A stretch of DNA of 64,000 nucleotides from Acorus gramineus (taxonomy: Eukaryota > Streptophyta > Magnoliopsida > Acorales > Acoraceae), in NCBI GenBank assembly GCA_030737835.1, contig CM060855.1, positions 11,627,927 to 11,691,926 of the forward strand, read 5' to 3'. The position numbers and the translations under genes are program-made. This document shows, in pieces, positions 22,954 through 64,000 of this stretch. Every line of letters begins with the position of its first letter. Position 1 is the stretch's first letter. The notes below the pieces were generated by a model. That model was not told the DNA's origin and ran no database searches. It worked only from the letters and a program-made list of their open reading frames with translations.

Positions 22954-24847
22954 ATGGCAGACGTCCCAGTGACTCCTCCACCATCCTATGGAAAGATCAT
23001 CACAGTCCTCAGCATCGACGGAGGCGGCATCAGGGGCATCATCCCTGGCTCCAGCCTTGCCTTCCTTGAATCCAAGCTCCAAGTGATTTTCAATCAAAAG
23101 ACATACAATTAGTGATTTTAATTTGTTGTTTTAAAGAACATCACATATAACTTATCATGTGATGTGTGGGGCGTTGTAGGAACTGGATGGAGAGAACGTG
23201 AGGCTGGCAGACTATTTCGATGTGATCTCCGGGACGAGCACCGGCGGTCTGGTGACTGCGATGATCACCGCCCCCGGCAAAGACAACCGCCCTCTCTACG
23301 CGGCGAAGGATATCGTTGACTTCTACCTGGAACACTGCCCCAAGATCTTCCCCCAGAAGAGGTGAAGTGATTTATTTTCATGTTTAACACGTGAAGTTTT
23401 ATGACTATTTAAATTACGTGTCAGTCTTTCATTGAAGATTGACAAACAATTTGTGTTTGTTTTAGTGGTTTAACGGCTGCAGCGCATAACCTGATAGAGG
23501 CGATGAACGGGCCAAAGTATGATGGGAAGTACTTGCACTCGTTGGTGCAGGGAATCCTCGGCGAGACACGCCTAGACAGCACCCTTGCGAACGTCGTCAT
23601 CCCTTCATTTGACATTAAGCTTCTGCAGCCAACCATCTTCACTACTTATAATGTAAGATCCACAATCCATATATTCTTGCTAGCTAGACAGTGTCGTCCG
23701 TTCCAACATTAATTGGTTACTAATTATTATTATTATTATTTTTTGGTTTTCTGGATGCGAAAAATAGGCCAAAGCGGAGAATCTGAAGAACCCTTTACTT
23801 TCAGATGTATGCATAAGCACCTCAGCGGCCCCGACGTACCTTCCGGCACACCATTTCGAGGTTAAAGACACAAAATTAGGGACTACCATGTCCTACAATC
23901 TCATTGATGGTGGTGTTGCTGCGAACAATCCGGTAAGCACACTTAACAAATTAATTAAATCTCGTCAGTGTTTTAGACTCTACAGAGAGATTGATACATA
24001 TGTGTACCTCACATGTTTAATATGTGAGTTCATGACGTTTTTAATCACGTATAGACGAGAATCGGTGGAATTCAGCACTGATTAATCCTGTCTCGTTTTT
24101 CTATTTGTTGATTAAAACTAAGTTGAACTTTTGTTTTGTTATATACAGACATTGCTGGCTATCAGTCAGGTGACGAAGGAGATATTCCAGAAGAACACGG
24201 ATTTCTTCCCCATAAAGCCAATGGACTACGGGAAATTCCTGGTCATCTCCCTCGGCACGGGCTCTGCGAAAGAGGAAAACAAGTATGACGCCGACATGGC
24301 CGCCAAATGGGGACTTTTGGGTTGGCTCTACAACCATGGCTCATCTCCCCTCATCGACGCCTTCAACCAATCTAGCGCCGACATGGTTGACATCCATGCG
24401 TCCATTTTGTTTCAGGCCCTCCATAGCCAGACGCACTATCTGAGGATCCAAGTGAGTGGAATAACATTCCAGTTCTTGTTAGTCTCTAGTGTGGTACTGA
24501 CACATTGTCTTTCATTGGAGATTGACGGGAACTGATCGAACTGATTAGATTTTATTCCTCAAATTAAATTAAACCTACTTGTTTTTCACCTTATGATGAT
24601 GTTATAGGATGATACGTTGACGGGTGATACGTCTTCGGTGGATGTGGCGACAAAGAAGAACTTGCAGGCGCTTCTGAAGGTGGGTCAGGATCTGCTGAAG
24701 AAGCCGGTGTCGCGGGTGAACCTGGATACAGGGGTGTATGAGCCAGTCGAGGGGGAGGGCACCAACGAAGAAGCATTGACTCGTTTTGCCAAGGTCTTAT
24801 CTGATGAGAGGAAACTCAGGTGCAAAGAAGCCAATGTCACTGTCTAA
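22954..24847 (+). CDS. PLP2: Patatin-like protein (PLP2 / pPLA-II type lipid acyl hydrolase), gene A
   Basis: Plant patatin-like proteins hydrolyse acyl esters of phospho- and galactolipids, usually as soluble enzymes induced by stress or stored in tissue. Six exons: 22954-23082, 23180-23361, 23466-23652, 23768-23932, 24149-24451 and 24608-24847, all GT-AG, giving 401 residues, the usual family length. The start codon context is ACCATGG. All catalytic elements are present: oxyanion loop DGGGIRG at residues 22-28, nucleophile elbow GTSTG with Ser63, and catalytic Asp213 in [11 protein letters not shown]-terminal family sequence follows ([20 protein letters not shown]). There is no signal peptide, so it is likely cytosolic. 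Codons are GC-rich compared with the flanks. It is the best preserved member of the cluster and lies 3.1 kb upstream of gene B on the same strand. Confidence 0.95.
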
Positions 24848-26062: not shown

Positions 26063-27956
26063 TTAAACATGCATGCACTTAAACATTAAAAGTGGTGGCA
26101 TTCCTCTAGAGTGTTGATTTTGGATATGTTGTATTGACTTTTTCTGACTTTCATAAGTTTTCAATGAGTTACATCGATTTTTTTTCCTACATTTTATTAT
26201 TATATATATAGGGGTACTACTGCCAGCACGACTGCATGCTTGAGTTCCAATATATATCAGTTTGTAGACTTCCGCTCAAGTTTTAGACTCGACCAGGCCA
26301 GGTGCATTTCTTTCTGCGTGACCAATGCGGGGTGTGTCGTTGTATGGTGCACCTAGTTGGATACAATCTAAACTTTGGATTATAACATACCTTAATTGTT
26401 ATGAAAGGATCTGCATATACTCACGCATTAAAATTTCAGTATATAAGCCATCAAGTATATCCTAACCAAAGCAACCTCAAATCGTCTAGATGATTCAAAG
26501 GAATTGTTCGACCTGAGATGATGAGTTTGAAAATTAATTTTTCACTAAAATCAGTTTTTGAAAATAGTTAAAAAAAAAGGTTATTTTTGTTCGATTTCTA
26601 AAAAGGTGTTCTTTATAACTAAAAGTAGATTTTTTTTTTTTAAATGAGGGCCATCCGAAGCATTTTGAAAAGAGATTCGATTAAATAAAATTCCCTGCAA
26701 TAAAAATCATTTTCAAACAGTACTAAAAAACTACACGTGGTTCGAATATGTAAAAAGTTTTTTGTTGTTTATTTTTGGTCTCCCCATGGCTTGGGTCGCA
26801 TTCGACTTTCAAAAAATGCCACCATCAACAAGAAGTTCAATTTGGAGTTTGGACTAGATAATTTATTAGAAGGCTCATCTATTCCAAACAAAATACACAC
26901 ATTACACTTACCCATATGCCCTAGTTTTTTATATTTATTTATTTATCCAAGCTCAATTTTTCTGTCCATGATTTTCCATCAATCTGAGAGTCTTCCATGC
27001 ATGTAGTCATGTTTGAATAATCCAATTGACATGTTAAAATTCTATTTACAAATATATTAATTGTAATCAGAGATTTCTATGTTATAGATAAGTCTTCCCT
27101 TGTCTGATGGATGTATATATGGATCGGATGGTATTTTAATCAAATCAAACTCCATATATAATTCTCCATTTGTTTATAGACGTCCCAATGGAGTATATAT
27201 AATATGGGATCTAGCCCAAGCTTGTCTTCTTGACTTTAATTTAAAAGACTGTCTGGCTTGTCGATCCAGATTTCTTGGAAGTCTCATGCACGTGAGCGTG
27301 TAATCTCACTGGGATTGCCACAGCCTTTAAAACTTAGAAACACCACAAAATTAATCAAACTTTTTATCAATCTATATCTTTCCATGGCCGGCGGCCACCA
27401 AAATAAATAAAGTGGTGTCCTCCTTAATTGTTGGGCTTTGAATAATCACAACTTGGGTGTTTCAATGCATGCAACTGCTGTCACAAATTTGTGGCCACAA
27501 TTTCCTTTTATTGCAAGAAATAAATGTGAACATTTGAACTCAGTTTACAAGAAACTTTTCATTCATTTGATGCATCAACAACAAATTCGGTCTGATGCAT
27601 TAATATATCCAGCAATATATATGTCTCACTTGTTTTGCCTATATCACCAAGAAACACCACAAAATAAAACTTGCACACATGTTTCCATGGCCACCGTAAC
27701 AAAGAAATTTCATTTAATTTTGAGTGCATAATTGGTGAACACTCTGTTTTGAGTAATAACAACCTGAGCACACAACCGTGGACAACTTGCAGACTCACAA
27801 TTCCCTTTTGTTGCAAGAAATTAATGTGAATTTCACAAAAAACTTCAATTCATTGAAGTGGATTGGGCTGACCTTATAGATGCAACATCAAAAAAATTTA
27901 GTCTGATTCGTTTTTTTATTCTAGCAATCCCTTGGTTTATATATACATGTACATAC
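26063..27956. other. Intergenic DNA between patatin genes A and B
   Basis: No gene was recognised. A short fold-back-like fragment lies at 26100-26190. Open frames here have no family motif. A pair of related phrases occurs near 27440-27680 and 27740-27840 (AATAATCACAACTTGGG / GAGTAATAACAACCTGAG and TTTTGTTGCAAGAAAT-like), so this is probably another local duplication. TTTATATATAC at 27936-27946 is the only TATA-like element close to gene B. Confidence 0.4.
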
Positions 27957-30900
27957 ATGAACACACAAAATATAGATGAACTGGTGACCAAGCACGCTTG
28001 CGCTCCACCGTCCCTTGGGAACATGGTGACCGTGTTGAGCATCGATGGCGGGGGTGTCCGGGGACTCATCCCAGCGACCATCCTATCTTTCCTCGAGTCC
28101 AAATTTCAGGTGACTCAATTTCTAGTCCTGCATCTATCTATCTATCTATCACACAAGGTAGATTATCTTGGATAATTTTATAGGATTGGGCAGTAAATTG
28201 TATACATGGGAGATCGAATTATCAGCTTATCAAGGGAAGGAATGATTTCCCCTGCATATGGGGGATCAACTTATCAGCACTGGCATCATTAAAAAAATCT
28301 ACGGAGAGAGAAATTACATTAGCCAACTAGATTGAGTGGGAACTTAGCTAAAGACGTTAATACATTCAGTCATTTCTGCGGTCATTTGTATATACAATTC
28401 TAACTCAGCATATGAAATTTATAATATGTAGTCCATTGTCTGAGTATATACTCTATTGGAGAAAATGTAAAACTATATGCATTCAATTAATTCGAGCATA
28501 TATCATTTCACTCTTTTATTGTGAAGTGTGTATATATATATACACTTCTTTATACAAATATTTATTTCAGATAAATTCAGAATGTACTGCAACTATAAAA
28601 GTGATTGCAGAAATGATCGAGATCAACATTTTCTTTAGCTAGATTGGCACCTTAGCACATTTGGAAGGCGCATCTAAAGCCCTTTTTGTTCAACTAAAGT
28701 TGTGGAAAAGATTTACTCAAATACGAAAGAACTTATCCATGATTATTCTTTGAAAGGAATCATTTTTTTGGATTCAATGAACAAAAGAATATAACATAAA
28801 TGACATTTCCACATGCGTGTTATATATTGTGGAGCCCGATGATTTGTACAGAGGATTGTTGGCATTACGCAAGGTATTACGCAGGGTATTACGCAGATCA
28901 AGCTTAAGTTTTTTGCTTTTAATAAAATGTCAGTATAAAAGAGCATCTCAATTTTTCATTAAGCTCTAGGGTTTTATTTTAGCGTGACTATTATAAAAAC
29001 TTTTTATTGATAGTGGATTGATCTTTAGTATGCTCCGTGGACGTAGGTAAGTTTCTTTGATTGATTGCATTCCAAGATCCAGAATTCGTAACAATACATT
29101 GCAGGAACTCGATGGAGAGGATGCGAGGATCGCAAACTACTTTGATGTGATTGCAAGGACGAGCACCGGTGGTCTTGTGACCGCCTTGATTACCGCTCCC
29201 AACGATAACAACCTCCCACTCTACGCCGCAAAGGACATTACGCGCTTTTACCTTGAACATTTCCCCAAGATATTCCCTCAGAATAGGTATATCTCTTTGC
29301 CCTGCAGGTTAGAGGATGATATGATATGCATGTGAATTAGCATTGGTAGGACTAACTGTGTATGTATGTGTGTGTGTGTGTATATATTTGCTTGGTCTAA
29401 CTGTATATATTCAATATAATGGCTTCCTTGTAGACATCATACTTCAGCCGGAAGCCTCATCGAAGCTATCAAAGGACCTAAATATGATGGAAAATACTTG
29501 CAGAGTCTGGTGAGAGATGTTCTAGGGGAGATGCGGTTGGACCAAACATTAACAAAAGTTGTGATCCCTACTTTCGATATCAAGCTCTTGCAACCTACCA
29601 TCTTCACTACATATGAGGTAATTAACTATCCCAATAAATCGTTTTACATGTGTTATTGATGTCTGAAGGTCTGTTCGTGCAAACAGGAAAATGAGATAAA
29701 ATGTAAAATTTATAGGTGTCTATCGAAAAGATAAAAAAAAAAAAAAATTCATTCACCTTGAGTTAATTTCTCACTTTTCATCATAGACAGTACATAAAAA
29801 CTGATCAAAGAAAAAATAATTTTTATCTCGATTATTTTTTCTTTGATTCGGATCCATTCAATTCTCTCTCTTTATTTTCCACCCAAATTATGCACAAACG
29901 CTTTAAATAATGCTTGTAATAATGTAGGCCAAAACTGAGGTTCTCAAGAATCCTCTACTATCGGACGTGTGCATCAGCACATTGGCCGCACCAACATATC
30001 TCCCAGCTCATTGTTTCGAAACCCGAAACCCCAAAGGAGAAGTCAGGAACTTCAACCTGATCGGTGGAGCAATCGCAGAGAACAATCCGGTACACGAACA
30101 CCTACTCTTCTTTGAACTAATTGAAATTTCCCAATATGGTTTTGAACTCTCATCCTTACAATGTGTATATATTGTATTGTTTGTAGACATTGTTGGCAAT
30201 GAACCACATCACCAAGGAGATAACCATGGGAAATGAGGATTTCTTGTCGATAAAACCAATCGACTACGGGAAGTTCCTTGTGATCTCTTTGGGAGCAGGG
30301 TCGTCAAAGAAGGATGGTAAGTACAACGCTGCCATGGCGGCGAAATGGGGGGTGTTGGGGTGGCTATACAGGGATGGAAACAGTCCCATTTTCGATGTCT
30401 TCTCCGAAGCTAGCGCCAACATGGTGGACATCCACGCATCCACTCTATTCCATGTTCTCCAATGCCAAACTAACTACCTCCGCATCCAGGTGACTCCTCT
30501 CTCTCTCACCTAACCAACACAGACATACACATTGTGCAACAGCACTCTCATGAATGGGTGAGGCTGAGGCGCTATTGATTCCATGATAAAAACTTGATCA
30601 GGATTTGAAGAATAGATGGGATTAAAAGATTCATGAATTAAATAAGCATTTCTTTTCTGATGGGGGCATTATTACATGCAATCTTATATAGAGCCTCGCA
30701 TGAAGCATGTAGTTTTTTATGTTTTTTTAATGTAAGATATATACAATTAATTGTCGTGTGTTTCATTAATACAATGTACTTTAAAAAAAAATTAAATTAC
30801 TTTAAAACTGTAAAAATGACTTTCCATTACATTTTTCAATTCATAACTATTATTTTTACAATATTGATTCTCAGGCCCCAACTTCACAGGCCCCATGAGG

Positions 30901-32831
30901 TGACATGTGTCTAATATCTGTTATATCCTTAGTTAATTTTTTTTTTTTTTTGATAACTGATCCCCACAAAATAATAAGGAGACAATTATAATTGATTAAA
31001 AAATAAAAAAAATCTTTAAATAAAAAAAAAGTGAAAGTGAGAACTTTCTTTCGAATAAACTCTTTTTAATCAAACATTTCTATTGAGATGGTCTCTTCTC
31101 TTCCAACCTAAACTTTCCAAAGATCTCCAAAAAAAAAACTCAATTATGAAGAGTATTATAACATGCAAAAGAAGTCAATTATAGGCGGTGATCAGATCAA
31201 CATAGAAAGGAGGAGATGATAAAAATGATGGAGGATGCTACAAAGCGTTTCACTGTTTCTTTGTTCTATTGTTTCTAAGGTTAGTTACATTTAATTTATA
31301 TATGATTTGTATGATGTTAATGTTACATTTCTGACATCGAATAAATGTAACAGTCTGAAATGTAACATTTATTCGTGTATTGCATTTGTTTCAATGCATG
31401 TAGTAATTTATATTTGTTACATTTATTAACGTAACAGTCAAATACATATATTTGTTAAATGTATCACACAACAAAAAAGGTGTTTGAACTGATTATTGAA
31501 AATAGAATCTGTTTATAAATTGTTTAAATGTAAATGTAACAATTTTTATGTAAATGTAACAAATCGTTGTGAGAGATATAAATATTTAAGAAATGTACTT
31601 GATGTAACTGCTTCATATAGTAACTATATATGTTTTTTTTATTTAAATTTGAATACAATAAATACCTGAATTTTTTAATGTTCAGTTAATAACATTCTTA
31701 AAAAAAAATTTAATGTGTATAATAAGAATATAAGTTTGAAGAAGAATTTTGATTAAAACAATTTAGATAATTTTTTATGTAATTTAGTTTTAATTGTAAT
31801 TTAGGTAAGGATTTCAAAATTCAAAATTTGAAATGGATAAATGGATTTGAAGATTCACTCATAACCGAATAGAGAAAATGGGGGGATTTGGGTAAATGTA
31901 GTTTTTTATGTTTTTTTAATGTAAGATATATACAATTAATTGTCGTGTGTTTCATTAATACAATGTACTTTAAAAAAAAAATTAAATTACTTTAAAACTG
32001 TAAAAATGACTTTCCATTACATTTTTCAATTCATAACTATTATTTTTAACATAAACAATCACATGTGAAAATGTTTATAGTTCTCAAGCTAGCCCAAGAT
32101 TGGGCATTTAGTTGTACTTTATAATACAACATTTATTATTAAAAATAAGTCTCACTTCAAAAAGGAAAAAAAAAAGTGTTTCTCTTCCCAAATATTTACA
32201 TACCATGAAAATCATGAATATGCATAATTTTTCTATATATGCACGCGTTTCTTAGACGAGAAAGTGATTTCTTCTTCTCCCCTTGTCATAGTGAAAATAT
32301 ACAATTTCCTTGGCTTTCTTGCAACCCTCATAAGTCATAACATACAAAGACTAATTATATCAAAATTAAATGAAAAAAACAGTGTGATTATATACGTTTA
32401 TTTAACAAATTAGTCCACAGGACAATACACTGACTGGTGAAGCAGCATCAGTGGACATATCGACAGATGAGAACCTGCAAAAACTAGTCCGAATTGGTGA
32501 AGATCTATTGAAGAAGACTGTGTCGCGGGTGAATGTGGAGACGGGCATGTCGGAGCCGGTCGAAGGAGAGGGCACCAATGAAGAAGCCTTGACTCGGTTA
32601 GCGAAGCTCCTCTCCGATGAGCGAAGGTTCAGGCGATCGAAATCGCCCAATGTTTGGTATACTCTCTCAATTGATGTCAAAAGGAGATTCAATACATCTC
32701 ACTTGCAATGTGTTACTCTTTTATCCATGTGCAGAAGTGTGGATTGTACAGAAAAATTAATCAAAACCATGACACAACCAATAAACAAAATTGTTATCCA
32801 GGTGATGGATGCATATAATATGGGGAACTAA
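27957..32831 (+). CDS. Patatin-like protein with lost catalytic residues, gene B (probable pseudo-enzyme)
   Basis: This has the same six-exon plan as gene A: 27957-28109, 29105-29286, 29434-29617, 29928-30089, 30187-30489 and 32421-32831, all GT-AG, in frame, giving 464 residues. The oxyanion loop DGGGVRG is intact (residues 30-36). However, the nucleophile elbow reads RTSTG, with Arg69 in place of the first Gly though Ser71 remains. The active-site DGG has become GGA, with Gly219 where Asp should be. By family knowledge the Ser-Asp dyad is then broken. The frame nevertheless stays open, suggesting recent loss or a non-catalytic role. The last exon runs about 55 residues past the normal end. 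Intron 5 is 1931 bases because of a transposon. The start is uncertain: the TATA-like box sits about 10-20 bases upstream of this ATG, so translation might begin at the in-frame ATG at 28023. Confidence 0.85.
30707..30858. repeat. 152-bp direct repeat, left copy, abutting a transposon end
   Basis: This is essentially identical to 31896-32048 (one extra A in a poly-A run). The left copy stops exactly where the transposon terminus CAATATTGATTCTCAGGCC begins at 30859. It lies inside intron 5 of gene B. Confidence 0.93.
30859..31895. mobile_element. Second copy of the GGCCCC-ended / TGTTACATTT element, truncated
   Basis: This corresponds in reverse orientation to the element at 12974-14331. Its left end matches that element's right terminus, and it stops at a point matching about 13133, so some 160 bp including the other terminus is missing. 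The TGTTACATTT / AAATGTAACA motif array is again present (about 31270-31570). It lies in intron 5 of patatin gene B, between the two 152-bp direct repeats. Confidence 0.8.
31896..32048. repeat. 152-bp direct repeat, right copy
   Basis: This is the partner of 30707-30858 and starts exactly where the truncated transposon ends. The following DNA up to exon 6 at 32421 is AT-rich intron. Confidence 0.93.
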
Positions 32832-39357: not shown

Positions 39358-40523
39358 TCAAGCGGTAGCATTAGTCTTTGGTTCCCTTTTTTTTTTCTCC
39401 ATGGATAAGAGATTTGCAAAACGAGTCAAGGCTTCTGCGTTGGTCTCCTCCTTCCCTTTGATTTTGACGGGTGTGTATTGCCCCGTCTCCAAATTCACTC
39501 GTGATACCTGTTTCTTTAACAGATCTTGGCCGATGTTCATAAGATAATGCATGTTCTCCTCTGTTGATATATCCACCGAAGCTGCAGCGGGCTTCAAATT
39601 ATCATACTACAACAACCATCAATTATTAGGGGGGAATGTTTAATCATCATTAAGTAGCTAGGTTAAGAAGTAACTATGCTTTTTAACTCACTTGAATTCT
39701 TAAGTAGTTATCCTCACACCCGAGCATCTGAAATAGGATGGATGTGTAGAAGTCGACCATGTCTGCATTAGATTCAGAGAAGCAGTCAATTATTGGATTC
39801 GAGCCATTTTGGTAGAGCCACCCGATCAGTCCCCATTTGGCGGCCATAGGCGCTTCGAAATTGTTCCCCTTGGTGAAACCTGTCCCAAGAGAGATCACCA
39901 GCACCTTCACACTGTCTATAGGCTTCATAGATGGATTCGAGGTGCCATTTTCCTTTAGTATCTTCTTCATCATCTCGCCAATGGCCAACGATGTCTATGA
40001 TAACACTTCAATTCGATTAGTCAGTAGGTACCAAAAATAGTTGATGTTGAATTTTGCTCAAGCTCAAGAATTAGCAATATGTCTCACCGGATTGTTTGCA
40101 GCGACTCCACCATCAATTAGATTGTAGCTCCTTGGATTGCCTGTCTTGTTTTTAACTACGAAATTGTGGGCTGGAAGATATGTTGGGGCTGCAGAGGTGC
40201 TTATGCATACGTCCGATAATTTAGGGTTCTTTTCTGGATTGGAATTGGCCTATATTGCATATAAAACATGCACATCAGAGAGAATGAGTTTTATGGATCA
40301 TTGGTAAAGAAAAGAACTAGTACTTCCACTACTACCACCACTACTGTGAAGAATTGGCCTGTCTTACATCATCAGTAGTGAAGATGGTTGGTTGCAGAAG
40401 CTTGATGTCGAAGGAAGGGATGACGATGTTTGTCAGTGTCTTGTTTAAGGGAGTATCACCCAGTTTTTCTTTAACCAGGCTTTGCAAGTACTTTCCATCA
40501 TATTTAGGCCCTCTGATTCTTAT

Positions 40524-40817
40524 TGGAGTTATTGGATAGGCCTGTTGTTGGGCCTATTCCCGGAGGCCCGGGGGTTGGGGGGCAACGCCCCCCATGGGCC
40601 GCAGGCCCCCCCGGGCCGGAGGGAATAGGCCCAACAACAGGCCCATGTGGGGAATCACCGATTGTGGGCGTACGGGGGTTCGGGGGCAGCGCCCCCGACT
40701 CGAATTTTTGTCATGGGTATTTTGGTCTTTTTCTGTTTTAGGGTTTGTACATCTTGTAACTATATAAGGGACCTTTCGGCCTCCATTACTAAAAATACAT
40801 TATTTCATTTATTTCTT
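40524..40817 (+). repeat. 5' LTR of the copia element, with GC-rich hairpin
   Basis: The 294-bp LTR starts TGGAGTTATTGG. A 23-bp arm at 40539-40561 is perfectly inverted at 40621-40643, enclosing further GC-rich hairpins (GGGGGGCAACGCCCCCC at 40576-40592). The TATA box TATATAAGG begins at 40761. The 3' LTR lacks the second arm of the large hairpin. Confidence 0.88.
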
Positions 40818-40932
40818 CTTGGTATCAGAGCCACAAAGAAACCCTAGGGTTTCACGATTTTTTTTTTTCCATCACGGGTCGTGGTGATCTCTATTATCTT
40901 TTCCTCTCTCGGGTCGAGATTTGAGGTTCGCA

Positions 40933-43083
40933 ATGGACAAAACGCCGAAAGACCCCACGCCACTGTCGGGTGTGGAGATCAAGGACACCACCATTCCGTT
41001 AGGGCACAATTCTCATGCTCAACGGATTACCACCGTGCTTCTTGATGGACGAAATTATCCGTCCTGGTCGCGTTCTGTTCGATTATATTTGGGTAGTCGA
41101 GGTATGTCAGGCCTTCTTCTTGGCACCATTAACAAGCCAGCAGAAACCGATACGACTTTCAATCAGTGGGAGATCAACAACTGTACGGTTCTAGGTTGGC
41201 TTTTCAACTCCATGGAGACCCGGATCTACAATATGTTCATGTATCATGATACGGTCGACTCTCTATGGGCTGCGTTGAAGAAGACCTATGGTCATGCCAG
41301 GAATGACTCACGGATCTATGAGTTGTACAAGGATATTGCCCAGGCCACCCAAGGTACCCAATCAGTTACCGATTATTTTGGATTTCTGCAGGCTCGTTGG
41401 GAGGAACTTGCCCACTATGAGCCTCTCTCGGAGTTGCCTAAGGAGGCTGCCACGATTGTGGTTGGCCGACTACAACGCCAACAGACATATGCGTTTCTTA
41501 TGGGCCTTCGATCAGAGTTCGAATCTCTTCGTGTTCAGATCTTGAATACCACACCACTTCCTTCTCTATTCGAGGCATTTGCTATTATTGAGGGTGATGA
41601 GCATCGCCGTCAGATCTCTTCCTCAGCGACCACTAGAACCCTCGGCGATCAGATGGCATTGGCGGCCACTTCTGGATATGACTCTCGCGGCCACGGGGAT
41701 AGTGGTCGCGGTCGTGGTCGTGGTCGTGGACGTGGACGCGGCAATATTGTGACTTGTGGCCACTGTGGAAAAACAGGTCATGAAAAAGTCAGATGTTTTA
41801 TTCTGTACCCACACTTGATGCGATCTCACAATGTTGGAGCTACTTCGTCTGCCCCTCGTGCTGCTGTTGCTGATGCCTTGGTTCCGGGTGATGCCCCCTC
41901 TGCTCCATCTGGGTCCTTTGATATGCGTAATATTCAGAACCATATTGATGCTATGGTTCGGGAGAGTCTTGCCTCTCATGTCTCTCATGCTGGTCTCTCT
42001 AATGCTGGTCCAACATCCTCTGCTGCTTCTTCCTCTACCTCAGGTATCCCCTCCGCCTACCATGTTAACCAATCAGGGTCTCCTACTTGGGTCATTGATT
42101 CAGGCGCTACAGAACACATGTCTGGTGAGTCTCGATTGTTTGTTCCCTTGACATCACCTTCTATACACAGAGAGGTACGCCTTGCTGATGGCTCACTTAC
42201 ACCTGTCATCAGTAAGGGTACCGTTCCTTTATCTTCCTCTTTATCATTACACTCTGTGTTACATGTTCCCAATCTTGCTCTTAACCTTCTTTCTGTTAGC
42301 CAATTGACTAAGGCTTTAAACTGTTCAGTGATTTTTTACCCTGATCATTGCGTTTTTCAGGACCTGAGTACACGGAGGATTTTTGGCAAGGGGTATGAGA
42401 GAGATGGCCTTTACGTCTTCGGAGAACCACCCACCACGGCCCATGCTTCCATTTTGTCCACTGATCATTCGCATAGTTTTTCTTTACAATCTCTAGATTT
42501 ATGGCATGCTCGTTTAGGACATGCCAATTTTCAGCATCTATGTTCTTTATTTCCTACTTTTCGCTCTTCATGTAAGACTCATAAATTTCAATGTGCTGTG
42601 TGTGAGCTTTCTAAACATACCCGTACTACTTATATTTCTCGTATGAATAAAGCTTCTGGGTTGTTTGATTTGATTCATTCTGATGTGTGGGGTCCCTCTC
42701 CTGTTACTGCTTTTGGTGGTCATAGATATTACTTGACATTCATTGATGATTTTTCTAGATATACTTGGGTTTATCTTCTTAAATCTCGGTCTGAGGTATC
42801 CTCTCAGTGTATTAATTTTTTACGCATGATTAAAACACAGTTTAACATTACTGTCAAGAGTATCAGGTCTGATAATGGGGGGGAGTATGTCTCGGATTCT
42901 TTTCGGTCTCATTTGAATGAGTTGGGAATCCTTCAACAGTTGACTTGTCCATATACACCTGAGCAGAATGGGGTGGCGGAACGCAAGAATCGTCATCTCA
43001 TGAATGTGGTTCGTTGTCTCCTTCGAGGAATGAGTGTTCCAAAGTCCTATTGGAGTATGACAGTCCTCACTGCTGCTTTTTGA
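40933..43083 (+). CDS. Copia gag-protease-integrase ORF (716 aa, ends at a frameshift)
   Basis: Starting at the first ATG after the primer site, the frame encodes the copia Gag region (UBN2/Retrotran_gag type), then a Gly-Arg repeat and a zinc knuckle CGHCGKTGHEKVRC near residue 275. The aspartic protease motif WVIDSGATEHMSG is near residue 389. Integrase follows: the zinc-binding WHARLGH...C..C near residue 525-560, and catalytic Asp, Asp and Glu in HSDVWG, SDNGGE and NGVAERKNR (about residues 583-682). The frame ends at a TGA at 43081-43083, where a run of five T replaces the six expected; the pol frame continues one base over. This looks like a simple inactivating deletion rather than programmed frameshifting, since copia elements normally use one ORF. 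Confidence 0.9.
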   Translation: MDKTPKDPTPLSGVEIKDTTIPLGHNSHAQRITTVLLDGRNYPSWSRSVRLYLGSRGMSGLLLGTINKPAETDTTFNQWEINNCTVLGWLFNSMETRIYNMFMYHDTVDSLWAALKKTYGHARNDSRIYELYKDIAQATQGTQSVTDYFGFLQARWEELAHYEPLSELPKEAATIVVGRLQRQQTYAFLMGLRSEFESLRVQILNTTPLPSLFEAFAIIEGDEHRRQISSSATTRTLGDQMALAATSGYDSRGHGDSGRGRGRGRGRGRGNIVTCGHCGKTGHEKVRCFILYPHLMRSHNVGATSSAPRAAVADALVPGDAPSAPSGSFDMRNIQNHIDAMVRESLASHVSHAGLSNAGPTSSAASSSTSGIPSAYHVNQSGSPTWVIDSGATEHMSGESRLFVPLTSPSIHREVRLADGSLTPVISKGTVPLSSSLSLHSVLHVPNLALNLLSVSQLTKALNCSVIFYPDHCVFQDLSTRRIFGKGYERDGLYVFGEPPTTAHASILSTDHSHSFSLQSLDLWHARLGHANFQHLCSLFPTFRSSCKTHKFQCAVCELSKHTRTTYISRMNKASGLFDLIHSDVWGPSPVTAFGGHRYYLTFIDDFSRYTWVYLLKSRSEVSSQCINFLRMIKTQFNITVKSIRSDNGGEYVSDSFRSHLNELGILQQLTCPYTPEQNGVAERKNRHLMNVVRCLLRGMSVPKSYWSMTVLTAAF

Positions 43084-45293
43084 TTAATCGGACTCCCAAT
43101 CGTACTTTAGGAGGTCAAGTTCCCTTCCATGTTTTGTATCCCAGTCGTACTCTTTTCCCCATCACTCCTCGAGTCTTTGGGTGTACTTGTTTTGTTCAGG
43201 ATAGGGGACCCTCACGCACCAAGCTTGATGATAAGTCTATACGTTGTGTTTTCCTTGGTTATTCCACCATGTCCAAAGGATATAGATGCTATGATCCTAT
43301 TTCTCGGAGATTGTTCCATTCCCTTGATGTTACATTTTTTGAGGATGTGCCATATTTTTCTGACACGGTTCTGCAACATTCTTCTTCACCAGTTCGACCG
43401 GCATCATTTTTTCAGCCATTGCCTTTGCCACAGCCACAGTCATCACCACCACAGTCGTTCCATCCACAGTCATCACCACCACAGTCTCCTCTTATTGTAT
43501 ACACTCGTAGACCTCGACCACCTCTCTCTCCTGCTCACTTGTCGACATCCTCCTCGGACTCAGGTATATCCTCTTCCTTGATCACTCCATATTCTGTTTC
43601 TGATTTGCCTCCATCTGACTCTGATGTACCTATTGCTCTTCGCAAAGGTCGTCGGAGTTGTGTCACTGCTCATCCTCTTGCCCAGTTTGTTTCTTATCAG
43701 GGACTTTCAGATTCCTACAGAGCTTACCTAGCTGCTACATCGTCTATCCGTATTCCTCGTACTGTAATTGAGGCATTACAGGATCCTCTTTGGACCGCCG
43801 CTATGACCGCAGAGATGGATGCCTTGCAGAAAAATCATACGTGGGCGTTAGTTGATCTTCCACCAGGGGAGAGAACTGTTGGTTGTCGATGGGTTTTCAC
43901 AGTAAAATACAAGGCTGATGGGGCTGTTGAGCGCTATAAGGCACGCCTTGTTGCAAAAGGTTTCACTCAGACTCCAGGGAAGGATTTCCATGCTACATTT
44001 GCTCCTGTTGCCAAGCTGACTACCGTTCGGCTTCTTATCTCTCTTGCTGCTTGTCACAACTGGCCTCTTCATCAGATGGATGTGAAGAATGCTTTTCTTC
44101 ATGGCGACTTGACAGAGAAAATTTATATGGATCCTCCGCCTGGTTTTCGTCTTCAGGGGGAGTATTCCGGGAAGGTCTGTCTTCTTCTCAAGTCTCTATA
44201 TGGACTGAAGCAATCACCGAGAGCATGGTTTCAAAGATTCAGTGTAATCATTCTCTCTCTTGGATTCACTCGTTGTCATGCTGATCATACTTGCTTCATT
44301 CGTCGAAGTAATGGACGGTGCACCATTGTTCTAGTTTACGTGGATGATATCATTATCACAGGAGATGATGCTGATTACATTGTTAGAGTGAAGACTGAGC
44401 TTGGACATGCGTTTGATGTGAAGGATTTAGGTCCTCTTCGGTATTTTTTGGGGATTGAGATTGCTCGCTCACGCCATGGTATTTCACTCTCCCAGCGAAA
44501 ATACACTCTTGACCTTCTTGAGGATACCGGTATGCTTGGATGTCGCCCTGCCACTTCTCCTATGGACCAGAACCATCGCCTTCATGTTGAATCAGGCGAC
44601 CTTCTACCAGATCCTTCTTTGTATCAGCGTCTAGTGGGACGTTTGATTTACTTGACGAATACTAGACCTGATTTGACTTTTGCTGTCAGCGTGGTGAGTC
44701 AATTCATGCATGCCCCACGGACTTCTCACCTAGATGCTGTTTACCGGATTCTTCGATACTTGAAGTCATGCCCAGGTCTTGGCTTATTCTATGCTACTAG
44801 TGCTCAGCCTATCATTTCTTGTTACACTGATGCAGATTATGCTGGTTCACTCACTGATCGTCGATCCACCTCCGGTTTTTGTACTTTCCATGGGGACAAC
44901 CTCATTTCCTGGAAAAGTAAAAAACAGAGTGTTGTCTCTCGTTCTTCTGCTGAGGCAGAATATCGTGCCATGGCCCAAGGCACATGTGAGATCATTTGGT
45001 TGCGCTCTCTTTTGACAGAGTTGGGATTCCCTGTAGCTGGTTCATCTACTTTGTTTTGTGATAACCGATCTGCCATTATGCTTGCCTCAGACTCAGTTCT
45101 TCATGAGCGGACCAAACACATTGAGGTTGACATTCACTTTCTTCGAGAGAAAGTACAGTCAGGCGCCATTGACACAGCATTTGTCTCTTCCAACGAGCAA
45201 CTTGCTGATATGTTCACCAAATCCGTTGGTCCCTCTGTTCTTCGTTCTAGCTTGATCAAGTTGGGCTTGCTTGATATCTTCGCTCCAACTTGA
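43084..45293 (+). CDS. Copia integrase C-terminus, reverse transcriptase and RNase H ORF
   Basis: In the shifted frame the integrase C-terminal region continues (LINRTPNRTLGG, then FLGYSTMSKGYRCYDP), followed by a Ser/Pro/His-rich linker. Reverse transcriptase covers roughly 43790-44520, with the motifs WVFTVKYKADG, MDVKNAFLHGDL and the active-site YVDD at 44338-44349. RNase H (about 44820-45230) has YTDADYAGS, the SSAEAEYRA helix, FCDNRSA and the terminal LADMFTKSVG typical of copia. The frame is open to a TGA at 45291-45293, just before the polypurine tract. An upstream overlapping open stretch from 43014 exists, but its first residues are out-of-frame integrase DNA. It has no initiation signal of its own, so it is probably not translated. 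Confidence 0.9.
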
Positions 45294-45303
45294 GGGGGAG
45301 TAT

Positions 45304-45589
45304 TGGAGTTATTGGATAGGCCTGTTGTTGGGCCTATTCCCGGAGGCCCGGGGGTTGGGGGGCAACGCCCCCCATGGGCCGAAGGCCCCCCCCGGGCCGG
45401 AATCACCAAAATACCCATGTGGGGAATCACCGATTGTAGGCGTACGGGGGTTCGGGGGCAGCGCCCCCGACTCGAATTTTTGTCATGGGTATTTTGGTCT
45501 TTTTCTGTTTTAGAGTTTATACATCTTGTAACTATACAAGGGACCTTTTGGCCTCCATTACGTAATATATATTATTCCATTTATTTCTT
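45304..45589 (+). repeat. 3' LTR of the copia element
   Basis: It matches the 5' LTR apart from about ten substitutions and one replaced segment: where the 5' LTR has the returning hairpin arm, this LTR reads AATCACCAAAATACC. The TATA box is altered to TATACAAGG. The divergence suggests an insertion that is young but not brand new. Confidence 0.88.
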
Positions 45590-45594
45590 CTTAT

Positions 45595-45615
45595 ATATCA
45601 AAAGGAGCAAGTCAC
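45595..45615 (-). other. Truncated intron 2 of patatin gene C
   Basis: On the minus strand exon 2 ends at 45616 with a normal GT donor, but after GTGACTTGCTCCTTTTGATA the copia target duplication starts. Gene D has the same opening, followed by 220 further bases before its acceptor, so most of the intron is missing here. Confidence 0.7.
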
Positions 45616-46084
45616 CATTTCTGAGGGAAGATCTTGGGGCAGTGTTCAAGGTAGAATTTCACGATATCCTTGGCGGCATAGAGAGGCCGCTTGTTATTGC
45701 CTGGGGAGGTGATCATTGCGGTTACTAGACCACCAGTGCTCGTCCCTGCGATCACATCAAAGTAGTCTGCGAGCCTCACACGCTCTCCATCCAAGTCCTG
45801 TATTATGCAACCACACGTTGATTAATTGAGTGGTCATACAAGTAACTAAATTATAGAAAACCAACAAAATCACAGTGTCATTAATTTACTTGGAGCTTAG
45901 ATTCGAGAAAATCAAGGATGACCCCTGGGATAATTCCCCTGACACCCCCACCGTCAATGCTAAGAATGGTGATCATCTTTTGAAGGGAAGGAGGAGTCGT
46001 CTCGACGACAGTGCCCATAATGAAGGAGCAAAGTTGAGGAAGATATAGGTTGTTTGTGTTATGGATCAAAATCAATTTGGGGTG

Positions 46085-53406: not shown

Positions 53407-53571
53407 ATATTGAAATAATAAAATACGTTCACCATTCCCCCCTTAGGCTTAGGTGCAGTCACCGTCCCATCACAGTCTAATTAATCATATGGTTAAAAAA
53501 CAAATCACATGAACTAGTGATCCCACTTTTTTTCTCCACATGAACTCCACCTTTCACTCTTATGATTTTTT

Positions 53572-53711
53572 CATACATCATTTTCTTACCATTCCATTCA
53601 ATGTATCCCATGAATTACACAAATTAACAGCAAAGCGAGGACATACATCATTTTCTTACCATTCCATTCAATGTATCCCATGAATTACACAAATTAACAG
53701 CAAAGCGAGGA
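53572..53711. repeat. 70-bp tandem duplication downstream of gene D
   Basis: Two exact copies with a 70-base period (53572-53641, 53642-53711) begin CATACATCATTTTCTTACC. Pseudogene E has a single copy at the corresponding place (from about 63338), so the doubling happened after the D/E split, or was lost in E. Confidence 0.9.
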
Positions 53712-53756
53712 CAACTTTAAAAAAGAACGGCACAATCCCAAACCAAAAGTACTTCA

Positions 53757-55559
53757 TCAGGCAGTAGCACTTGCATCAACACTGGATTTCCTTAGCTTCC
53801 TCTCTTCGGATAAGAGTCTCGCAAAATGAGTCAAGGCTTCTTCGTTGGTCCCCTCCCCTTCGACGGGTTCATAGAGCCCCGTCTCCAAATTCACCCGCGA
53901 TACCTTCTTCTTCAGCAGATTCTTACCGATCTTAACAAGGTTTTGCAAGTTATTCTCCGTTGCGATATCCACCGAAGCCGCATCACCCGTCAACGTGTCA
54001 TCCTACCATCAATAGTTAATTGGGGTGGGAAATATAATTCAAATTTCGTTGGTGGAGCTAAAAATAGAGCTAAAAGTAAGGTTAGGTGTTCGCTTTTAAA
54101 TTAACTCACTTGGATCCTCAAATAATTCTTCTCGCATCCCAGCATCTGAAATAGTATGGAAGTATGAATGTCGATCATGTCTGAATTAGATTCGGCGAAG
54201 CAATCAATAATCGGATACGTCCACCCCATTGAACCCCATTCGGTGGCCTTTGAAGCATCGTATTTACCTTCTCCCTTTGCGATACCTGTGCCAAGAGAGA
54301 CCACCAACAACTTCCCACATTCCATAAGGTTCATAGGTGAATAATCACTTCTTCTTTTAATTTGTTGCTTCATGATCTCGCCAATCGCTAACGATGTCTA
54401 CAATAAAACTTCAATTCGATTAGTCATGAGAATATGTACCAAATTGTAGATGTTGAATTTTGCGCAAGCTTAATTAGTAGTGTTTCTCACTGGATTGTTT
54501 GCAGCGAGTCCACCATCGATAAGATTGTAGCTCTTGACAGAGCCCTGTTCGTCTTTAACATCGAAATGGTGGGCTGGAAGATATGTTGGGGCTGCAGAGG
54601 TGCTTATGCATACATCCGAAATAAAAGGGTTCTTTTGAGCATTGGATTTCGCCTATTTTGCGTGTTAGACATGAATGCGAAAGAGAATGAGTTTTATGGA
54701 TCACTAGAACAGGGAGATATTGTGAAGAATCAATCTTACGTCAAAAGTAGTGAAGATGGTTGGTTGCAGAAGCTTGATGTCAAAAGAAGGGATGACGACA
54801 TTTGTGAGTGTCTTGTCTAAGCGAGTCTCACCCAATTGTCGTCGCAACAAGCTATGCAAGTACTTGCCATCATATTTAGGCCCTTTTACCACACTTATAA
54901 TAGAGTTCTTCACCCAAGCTATTGGACCACTAAAGCACAGGATAGGAAAGAAGAAGAAAAAAAAGGGATAACACATTTTACTAACACTATAGAATATATA
55001 GTACAAGCAATCAACCACATGCCTATGGTGGCATGGAAACAAATTAGATTCTTTGTATGTGTGTATATAATTGTTATTCCTTGTGTGTGTGTGTGTGTGT
55101 GTGCACTATAATTGTTATGCAAATTGAATGATCAACTAATACAATGTTTTATATAAAAGGAGCAAGTCACCATGTCTGAGGGAAGATCATGGGGCAGTGT
55201 TCAAGGTAGAAATTTCGGATCTCCTTGGCCGCATATAGAGGTCGTTTCTCATTGTTTTTGTCTGGGGAGGTGATCATCGCGGTCACTAGACCACCTGTGC
55301 TCGTCCCAGCGATCACATCGAAGTAGTCCACGAGCCTAACATCCTTATCTTCATCCAATTCCTGCGTCGTGCGATCATACTTGATTAACCAAGTGGTCGC
55401 GCAAAACAAAATCAATCAAAGCATGTTGATTACCTGGAGTTTAGATTCGAGGAAATCAAGGATCACTGCGGGGATAATTCCCCTGATACCCCCACCGTCG
55501 ATGCTAAGAATGGTGATCATGTTTTGATCGGATGTAGGAGTCTTGACAACATCGGCCAT
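53757..55559 (-). CDS. PLP2: Patatin-like protein (PLP2 / pPLA-II type lipid acyl hydrolase), gene D
   Basis: Six minus-strand exons: 55559-55434, 55361-55171, 54929-54740, 54652-54491, 54397-54110 and 54002-53757, all GT-AG, giving 400 residues. The start is the first ATG after a good TATA box, and the product begins MADVVKTP, like gene A's MADVPVTP. The catalytic set is complete: DGGGIRG loop at residues 21-27, GTSTG with Ser63, and Asp215 in [10 protein letters not shown]. The C-terminus carries [20 protein letters not shown]. Oddities: exon 5 lacks five residues after GSMGW, where relatives have a WLYxNGSxP loop; exon 2 has three extra residues; and the exon 3 start ([10 protein letters not shown]) differs from gene A. 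The loss is in frame and not at the active site, so activity is plausible. It is colinear with the broken gene C, 7.7 kb to the left. Confidence 0.93.
55085..55104. repeat. (GT)n microsatellite in intron 2 of gene D
   Basis: About ten GT units lie in the 241-base intron 2. This intron region is missing from gene C. Confidence 0.85.
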
Positions 55560-63337: not shown

Positions 63338-64000
63338 CATACATCATTTTCTTACCATTCCATTCAATGTATCCCATGAATTACACAAATTAACAGCAAA
63401 GCGAGGACAACTTTAAAAAAGAACGGCACAATCCCAAACCAAAAGTACTTCATCAGGCAGTAGCACTTGCATCAACACTGGATTTCCTTAGCTTCCTCTC
63501 TTCGGATAAGAGTCTCGCAAAATGAGTCAAGGCTTCTCCAAATTCACCTGCGATACCTTCTTCTTCAGCAGATTCTTACCGATCTTAACAAGGTTTTGCA
63601 AGTTATTCTCCGTTGCGATATCCACCGACGCCGCATCACCCGTCAACGTGTCATCCTACCATCAATAGTTAATTGGGGTGGGAAATATAATTCAAATTTC
63701 GTTGGTGGAGCTAAAAATAGAGCTAAAAGTAAGGTTAGGTGTTCGCTTTTAAATTAACTCACTTGGATCCTCAAATAATTCTTCTCGCATCCCAGCATCT
63801 GAATGTCGACCATGTCGACCATGTTGAATGTCGACCATGAATGTCGACCATGTCTGAATTAGATTCGGCGAAGCAATCAATAATCGGATACGTCCACCCC
63901 ATTCGGTGGCCTTTGAAGCATCGTATTTACCTTCTCCCTTTGCGATGCCTGTGCCAAGAAAGATCACCAACAACTTCCCATAGTCCATAGGCTTTATAGG
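63338..64000 (-). pseudogene. Patatin-like copy E, recent damaged duplicate of gene D (partial)
   Basis: Exon 6 (63655-63453) and the end of exon 5 (63763 to beyond the window) match gene D almost base for base, and the 107-base intron between them is identical to D's. The coding parts are damaged. Exon 6 has a 43-bp deletion near 63536, at a TCT microhomology. Exon 5 has a 10-bp deletion near 63900 and a local expansion of GAATGTCGACCAT units at 63801-63850, where D has unrelated sequence. These shift the frame, so no normal C-terminus can be made. The N-terminal half lies outside the window, so a compensating structure there cannot be excluded. The order and orientation fit a third unit of the C-D tandem array. 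Confidence 0.88.

Follow-up and report, generated by a model that had tools for sequence, protein, structure and literature searches.

Gene B belongs to a cluster of patatin genes in the 64,000-nucleotide window of Acorus gramineus DNA analysed here (C9:11627927-11691926, from an assembly of 398.6 Mb in 137 contigs). Its coding sequence has lost the catalytic aspartate and the first glycine of the nucleophile elbow and keeps an open core frame. We give an even chance to the reading that B is retained under purifying selection as a non-catalytic patatin of the pPLA-II type; a very recent loss of function ranks close behind it. This even chance takes account of the doubtful ends of the gene model. 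The direct observations on B are its gene structure, its residue changes and a constraint averaged over its branch.

Structure and active site of gene B

An earlier, sequence-only reading had described B as six exons with good splice sites, all in frame. The joining held: the six exons, separated by GT-AG introns, join in frame to give 464 residues in that model, and a splice-aware alignment of the protein of the neighboring gene A to gene B recovers the identical five introns. All exons lie on the forward strand. Exon 1 (27957..28109 from the start assumed in that model, a doubtful start codon) carries the oxyanion loop DGGGVRG, exon 2 (29105..29286) the nucleophile elbow RTSTG with R69 and S71, and exon 4 (29928..30089) both LAAPTY and LIGGA, in which G219 occupies the position of the catalytic aspartate. 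Exons 3 (29434..29617) and 5 (30187..30489) are given by the joined model and by the alignment of protein A, while exon 6, placed at 32421..32831 in the original model, can be aligned to the paralogues until near 32656. Judged by its sequence and exon pattern, B is of the pPLA-II type. It matches PF01734 with 66.4 bits, against a gathering cut-off of 27.7.

The best solved relative of B is Patatin-17 (PDB 1oxw, 4pk9, 4pka, and 4pkb), which was aligned over residues 14-403 of B with an E-value of 4.9e-92. In this alignment R69, S71, and G219 of B correspond to Gly75, Ser77, and Asp215, respectively. The two proteins are alike in their conserved oxyanion loop and serine, and they differ in that B has Arg69 for Gly75 and Gly219 for Asp215, the residue described in PMC4172759 as the general base that activates Ser77. 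The joined exons and this alignment bear out the earlier statements that RTSTG stands in place of GTSTG and that Ser71 and the oxyanion loop are unchanged, the anion-binding loop DGGGxRG being intact at residues 30-36. In terms of the esterase box GxSxG, the serine is kept and the first glycine is replaced by arginine; with Ser71 kept, the pPLA-III signature GxGxG is absent. The statement that DGG had become GGA was right for the aspartate, which is now glycine, but the final alanine is no loss, and we rejected a double change here because Patatin-17 itself has DGA. Thirteen patatin genes of B's type, B and 12 others, were modelled in this genome. GTSTG is present in all 12 of the others, and the catalytic aspartate is retained in 11 of them, the exception being the frameshifted gene E, which has tyrosine. 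A further change, missed by the sequence-only reading, is S192L, which turns SAAPTY into LAAPTY at a position held by serine in the 12 other paralogues and by alanine in Patatin-17. A text search of the open-licence literature, which is not searchable by sequence, found no report of an RTSTG patatin.

Both ends of the gene model are doubtful on sequence grounds, and it is here that the description of six in-frame exons needs amending. A TATA-like box (pattern TATAWA; 27938..27943, forward strand) would lie only 19 nucleotides above the ATG at 27957, whereas the spacing from TATA box to assumed start is 66-113 nucleotides in the nine paralogues where both were found (the anchor pattern missed G3, and G1 and G2 have no TATA box above the start). 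An alternative start codon, M23 (28023..28025, forward strand), sits in an AACATGG context 85 nucleotides below the box. Because this spacing fits that of the paralogues, translation of B probably begins at M23, immediately ahead of the fold's first strand. Counter to this choice, C, D, E, H, and I carry the methionine as well, yet are assumed to start elsewhere. Toward the 3' end, homology of B to its paralogues breaks off near SPNV, and the last 58 codons of exon 6, stop included, have a guanine-plus-cytosine (GC) content of 0.33 compared to 0.49 in the core. Removal of a candidate 78-nucleotide GT-AG intron (32657..32734, forward strand) would put a stop right after SPNV and yield a protein of 406 residues. 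By chance, 57 codons resembling untranslated sequence would remain open in about 0.7% of cases, which mildly favors the longer C-terminal reading.

Selection on B and the age of its lineage

The ratio of nonsynonymous to synonymous substitution (dN/dS, omega) was estimated with a purpose-built codon model, using a main set of 377 codons from 12 genes. Gene E was excluded from the 12-gene codon model and from the invariant-position, active-site, and Patatin-17-added tests described below; columns with fewer than eight genes were dropped from the 12-gene, 13-gene, and hand-written-tree codon models, and gap columns from those three tests. On the terminal branch of B, omega is 0.128 (about 0.08-0.20, read from the profile) at a synonymous divergence (dS) of about 0.88. 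On this branch omega = 1 is rejected (twice the log-likelihood difference, 2dlnL, 54.7), and no difference from the background value of 0.175 is seen (2dlnL 1.7). Other data sets and trees gave 0.126 (13 genes), 0.117-0.127 (three hand-written trees, one of them maximum-likelihood-like), and 0.092 (four genes). The dN/dS comparison that the sequence-only reading had proposed as a check on B, run here among paralogues, rejects neutrality at an omega of about 0.13. Long-term neutral decay of B was rejected on the branch omega and the open core frame. In place of the marks of a processed or long-dead pseudogene, B has its five introns, that open frame, and that low omega.

B forms its own deep lineage, which adjoins the G/J group with bootstrap values of 95 (DNA) and 69 (protein); it is an old single-copy lineage among the 13 modelled paralogues. 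Searches at the DNA and protein levels turned up no near copy of B in this genome, and neither a recently duplicated form nor a second allele. Non-self DNA matches in patatin exons show 70-79% identity, a few short matches of up to 85% identity fall in intron-3 sequence, and non-self protein matches do not exceed 76% identity, over short exon pieces. Neither in the tree of modelled paralogues nor in the copy search of the genome does any relative split B's long branch.

The number of invariant positions lost in B is not significantly raised. It departs at 14 of the 134 positions invariant in the 11 other genes, where simulation gave 9.55 ± 3.2 and 14 was reached in 11% of 500 runs. When Patatin-17 was added, there were 7 departures in 98 positions compared to 5.2-5.5 simulated, a count reached in 26-30% of 500 runs under each of three models. 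These simulations are rough, predicting 102 invariant columns where 134 were seen, and 71-72 where 98 were seen with Patatin-17. In a four-gene alignment, changes found in one gene only number 35 in B, 16 in A, 25 in C, and 23 in D, a surplus that B's long branch can explain.

The open 385-codon core caps the neutral divergence of B, in substitutions per site, at about 0.015-0.03 (a bound close to the 5% level, depending on the ratio of indels to substitutions). That two of some 11 key positions should be hit within such a short span is improbable. In a rough likelihood integration, for which the number of key positions (11) and the indel rates were set by hand, a loss of activity that retains the frame was favored 152- to 753-fold before priors.

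Retention, recent loss, and other readings of B

If B is retained, its product would be a folded, non-hydrolysing patatin of about 384 residues, running from M23 to V406; expression, folding, inactivity, start and stop, and role are what we infer for it. Without the aspartate, such a protein would have no general base, and the arginine in the elbow would likely distort the nucleophile, while the kept oxyanion loop and Ser71 should still allow a lipid or acyl ligand to bind without turnover, the simplest property that could be left to it. B might then pair with motif-intact paralogues (A, H, and I are examples) or regulate them as a lipid binder. Since potato patatins are natively dimers, as stated in PMC12254056, such pairing is conceivable. 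The fuller proposal is that B is an old, maintained pPLA-II pseudo-phospholipase that keeps nucleophile and oxyanion loop and acts as a non-hydrolysing binder of acyl lipids or as a partner, distinct from the S77G storage forms of potato. We hold it tentatively, at about one chance in three. The role of storage protein, raised by the sequence-only reading, looks weak: by eye, no hydrophobic N-terminal segment was seen in the paralogues, or in B from either start (its true start being uncertain), and the lack of a visible leader would speak against vacuolar storage.

Enzyme-dead or altered relatives have already been described from potato and rice, and B looks like another example rather than a new kind. 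In PMC12254056, S77G is given for 4 of the 19 listed potato patatin genes and for two of the three most expressed ones, which provides a precedent for a retained but catalytically dead B. As described there, the potato class-I S77G patatins and B are alike in the loss of a dyad residue and in belonging to a gene cluster with full-length and truncated copies. The potato forms, however, have lost the serine and are strongly expressed in the tuber, and that source calls a signal peptide characteristic of potato patatins; B keeps the serine, has lost the aspartate and the elbow glycine, lacks an evident signal peptide, and is known here from its gene sequence alone. Retention would make B a patatin that lacks an evident signal peptide and persists without its chemistry. 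It would then be separable from the storage explanation given for potato and would offer a test of plant patatin roles beyond hydrolysis.

Several observations weigh against retention. B no longer has the usual start codon, and its stop is either lost or dependent on an unproven intron. The Pfam score of B is below those of A (89.7 bits) and D (90.3 bits). Its departures show no concentration in the active-site and portal residues given for Patatin-17 (3 of 24 positions compared to 11 of 110 elsewhere, p = 0.48), and one of the three active-site departures is the harmless DGA-type alanine; this even spread counts against retention because a pseudo-enzyme predicts concentration. G3 combines an in-frame stop with an omega of 0.065, so that a low omega alone is no proof of a living gene. 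Finally, all of the constraint on B could predate the loss, as the searches of this genome found no close relative of B.

The main alternative is that B worked as an ordinary enzyme up to a very recent time and then lost its function through loss of promoter or start or through the catalytic changes themselves, with no stops or frameshifts accumulated yet. The missing start and altered stop region, the spread of departures over the protein, and the broken state of its relatives C, E, and G3 in this genome all favor such a loss, as does a very recent insertion in intron 5, whose flanks show no substitution over about 150 aligned bases. B would then represent a routine step of turnover in a family with other broken members. 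However, this course of events requires that two of about 11 key positions be hit within a neutral time too brief to harm the rest of the frame, and retention still receives 0.60-0.88 under a prior of 100:1 for pseudogenes, though only 0.23-0.60 at 500:1. We regard a fresh loss as a serious possibility that falls short of an even chance.

The choice posed by the sequence-only reading, between a fresh casualty and a retained pseudo-enzyme, was sound but incomplete, since a third option, an altered yet active enzyme, has a precedent in pPLA-III. B would in this case hydrolyse acyl lipids via a non-canonical site. According to PMC4623698, pPLA-III proteins lack the serine of the box and in many cases the aspartate as well (in rice the corresponding motif is GGG, SGG, TGG, or DGG), and acyl-lipid hydrolysis is reported for them. 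Some members share with B the replacement of the DGG aspartate by glycine, as far as PMC4623698, PMC6162203, and PMC4253999 describe them; a grapevine survey gives SAAPTY and DGGxxANN for all its pPLA, which implies that loss of the aspartate is not general in pPLA-III (PMC6162203). Two pPLA-III-like genes of this genome (L004 and L006) have the G-x-G-x-G elbows GSGLG and GTGVG and keep DGG. However, in pPLA-III the serine is also replaced and the intron/exon structure differs, whereas B has the sequence and the six-exon pattern of pPLA-II with its serine kept; moreover, its arginine stands at a glycine constant in 12 paralogues and Patatin-17 and would likely disturb the site. Activity by this route seems improbable. 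Less probable still is that an error in the sequence or its assembly produced one or both codons. The single copy of B found in the genome offers no second allele for comparison, but the two differences are separate, clean, in-frame single-base changes in different exons, and B diverges from its paralogues along its whole length. Retention without catalysis stays our preferred reading of B, at the even chance stated above.

Other patatin genes and repeats around B

The window has a GC content of 34%, and its genes point to a plant origin. Genes A-F form its patatin cluster; G1-G3 make up a second cluster on the same contig (C9), H lies on C7, and I, J1, and J2 lie on C2. Gene A (22954..24847, forward strand) and gene D (53757..55559, reverse strand) each have six exons with GTSTG and DGG intact. 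Gene C (39358..46018, reverse strand) is interrupted by a copia-type element at about 40521-45592, the terminal repeats of which (within 40521-40820 and 45301-45592) match at 93-98%; the model of C is without the 5' part of exon 3. Only the 3' part of gene E (63762..64000, reverse strand) lies in the window, and E has tyrosine at the aspartate position, one in-frame stop, and two frameshift calls. The single frameshift call in F, at the extreme C-terminus, may be an artefact of the guide. G3 (G000:C9:10363869-10366238, L040) has one in-frame stop and would be a very fresh casualty unless the sequence is in error. An in-frame stop in J1 was rejected as an artefact of the A guide, since G1 as guide gives an open J1 frame; the J1 row in the tree, simulation, and codon-model alignments is the A-guided version with the apparent stop codon masked.

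With 13 genes, omega on the short branches is 2.31 for C, 1.46 for F, and 0.355 for E and is not estimable for D, where dS is near 0; the four-gene comparison gives 0.63 for C and 0.43 for D. The C/D/E/F clade has an omega of 0.44 compared to 0.126 elsewhere, and the C and F tips jointly have 0.81, which does not differ from 1; in these estimates, relaxation and diversifying selection are not separated. The sequence-only reading had taken A and D to be active neighbors of B. For D this is doubtful, as it keeps its motifs but lies in this relaxed clade. For A, H, I, J1, G1, G2, and J2, omega ranges over 0.085-0.327 (13 genes).

Intron 5 of B contains a repetitive element (30868..31908, forward strand) with a local duplication of about 150 nucleotides on its flanks (30707-30863 / 31896-32053). 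The insertion is very recent, to judge from the near-identity of the flanking copies, which differ by zero substitutions and one single-base gap, and it leaves the exons undisturbed. The element, of about 1.04 kb, recurs in at least 37 other places, in matches of roughly 960 bases or longer that are 88-96% identical, a lower bound because scoring covered 40 of 1,294 candidates. The flanking duplication is far longer than the usual target-site duplication. Directly upstream of B lies a tandem duplication (27323-27616 / 27637-27928) whose copies are about 60% identical; a recent promoter swap was rejected, as this duplication is old and stops short of the TATA box. Another short tandem duplication, noted by eye, occupies 53560-53720, a short way downstream of the stop codon in gene D.

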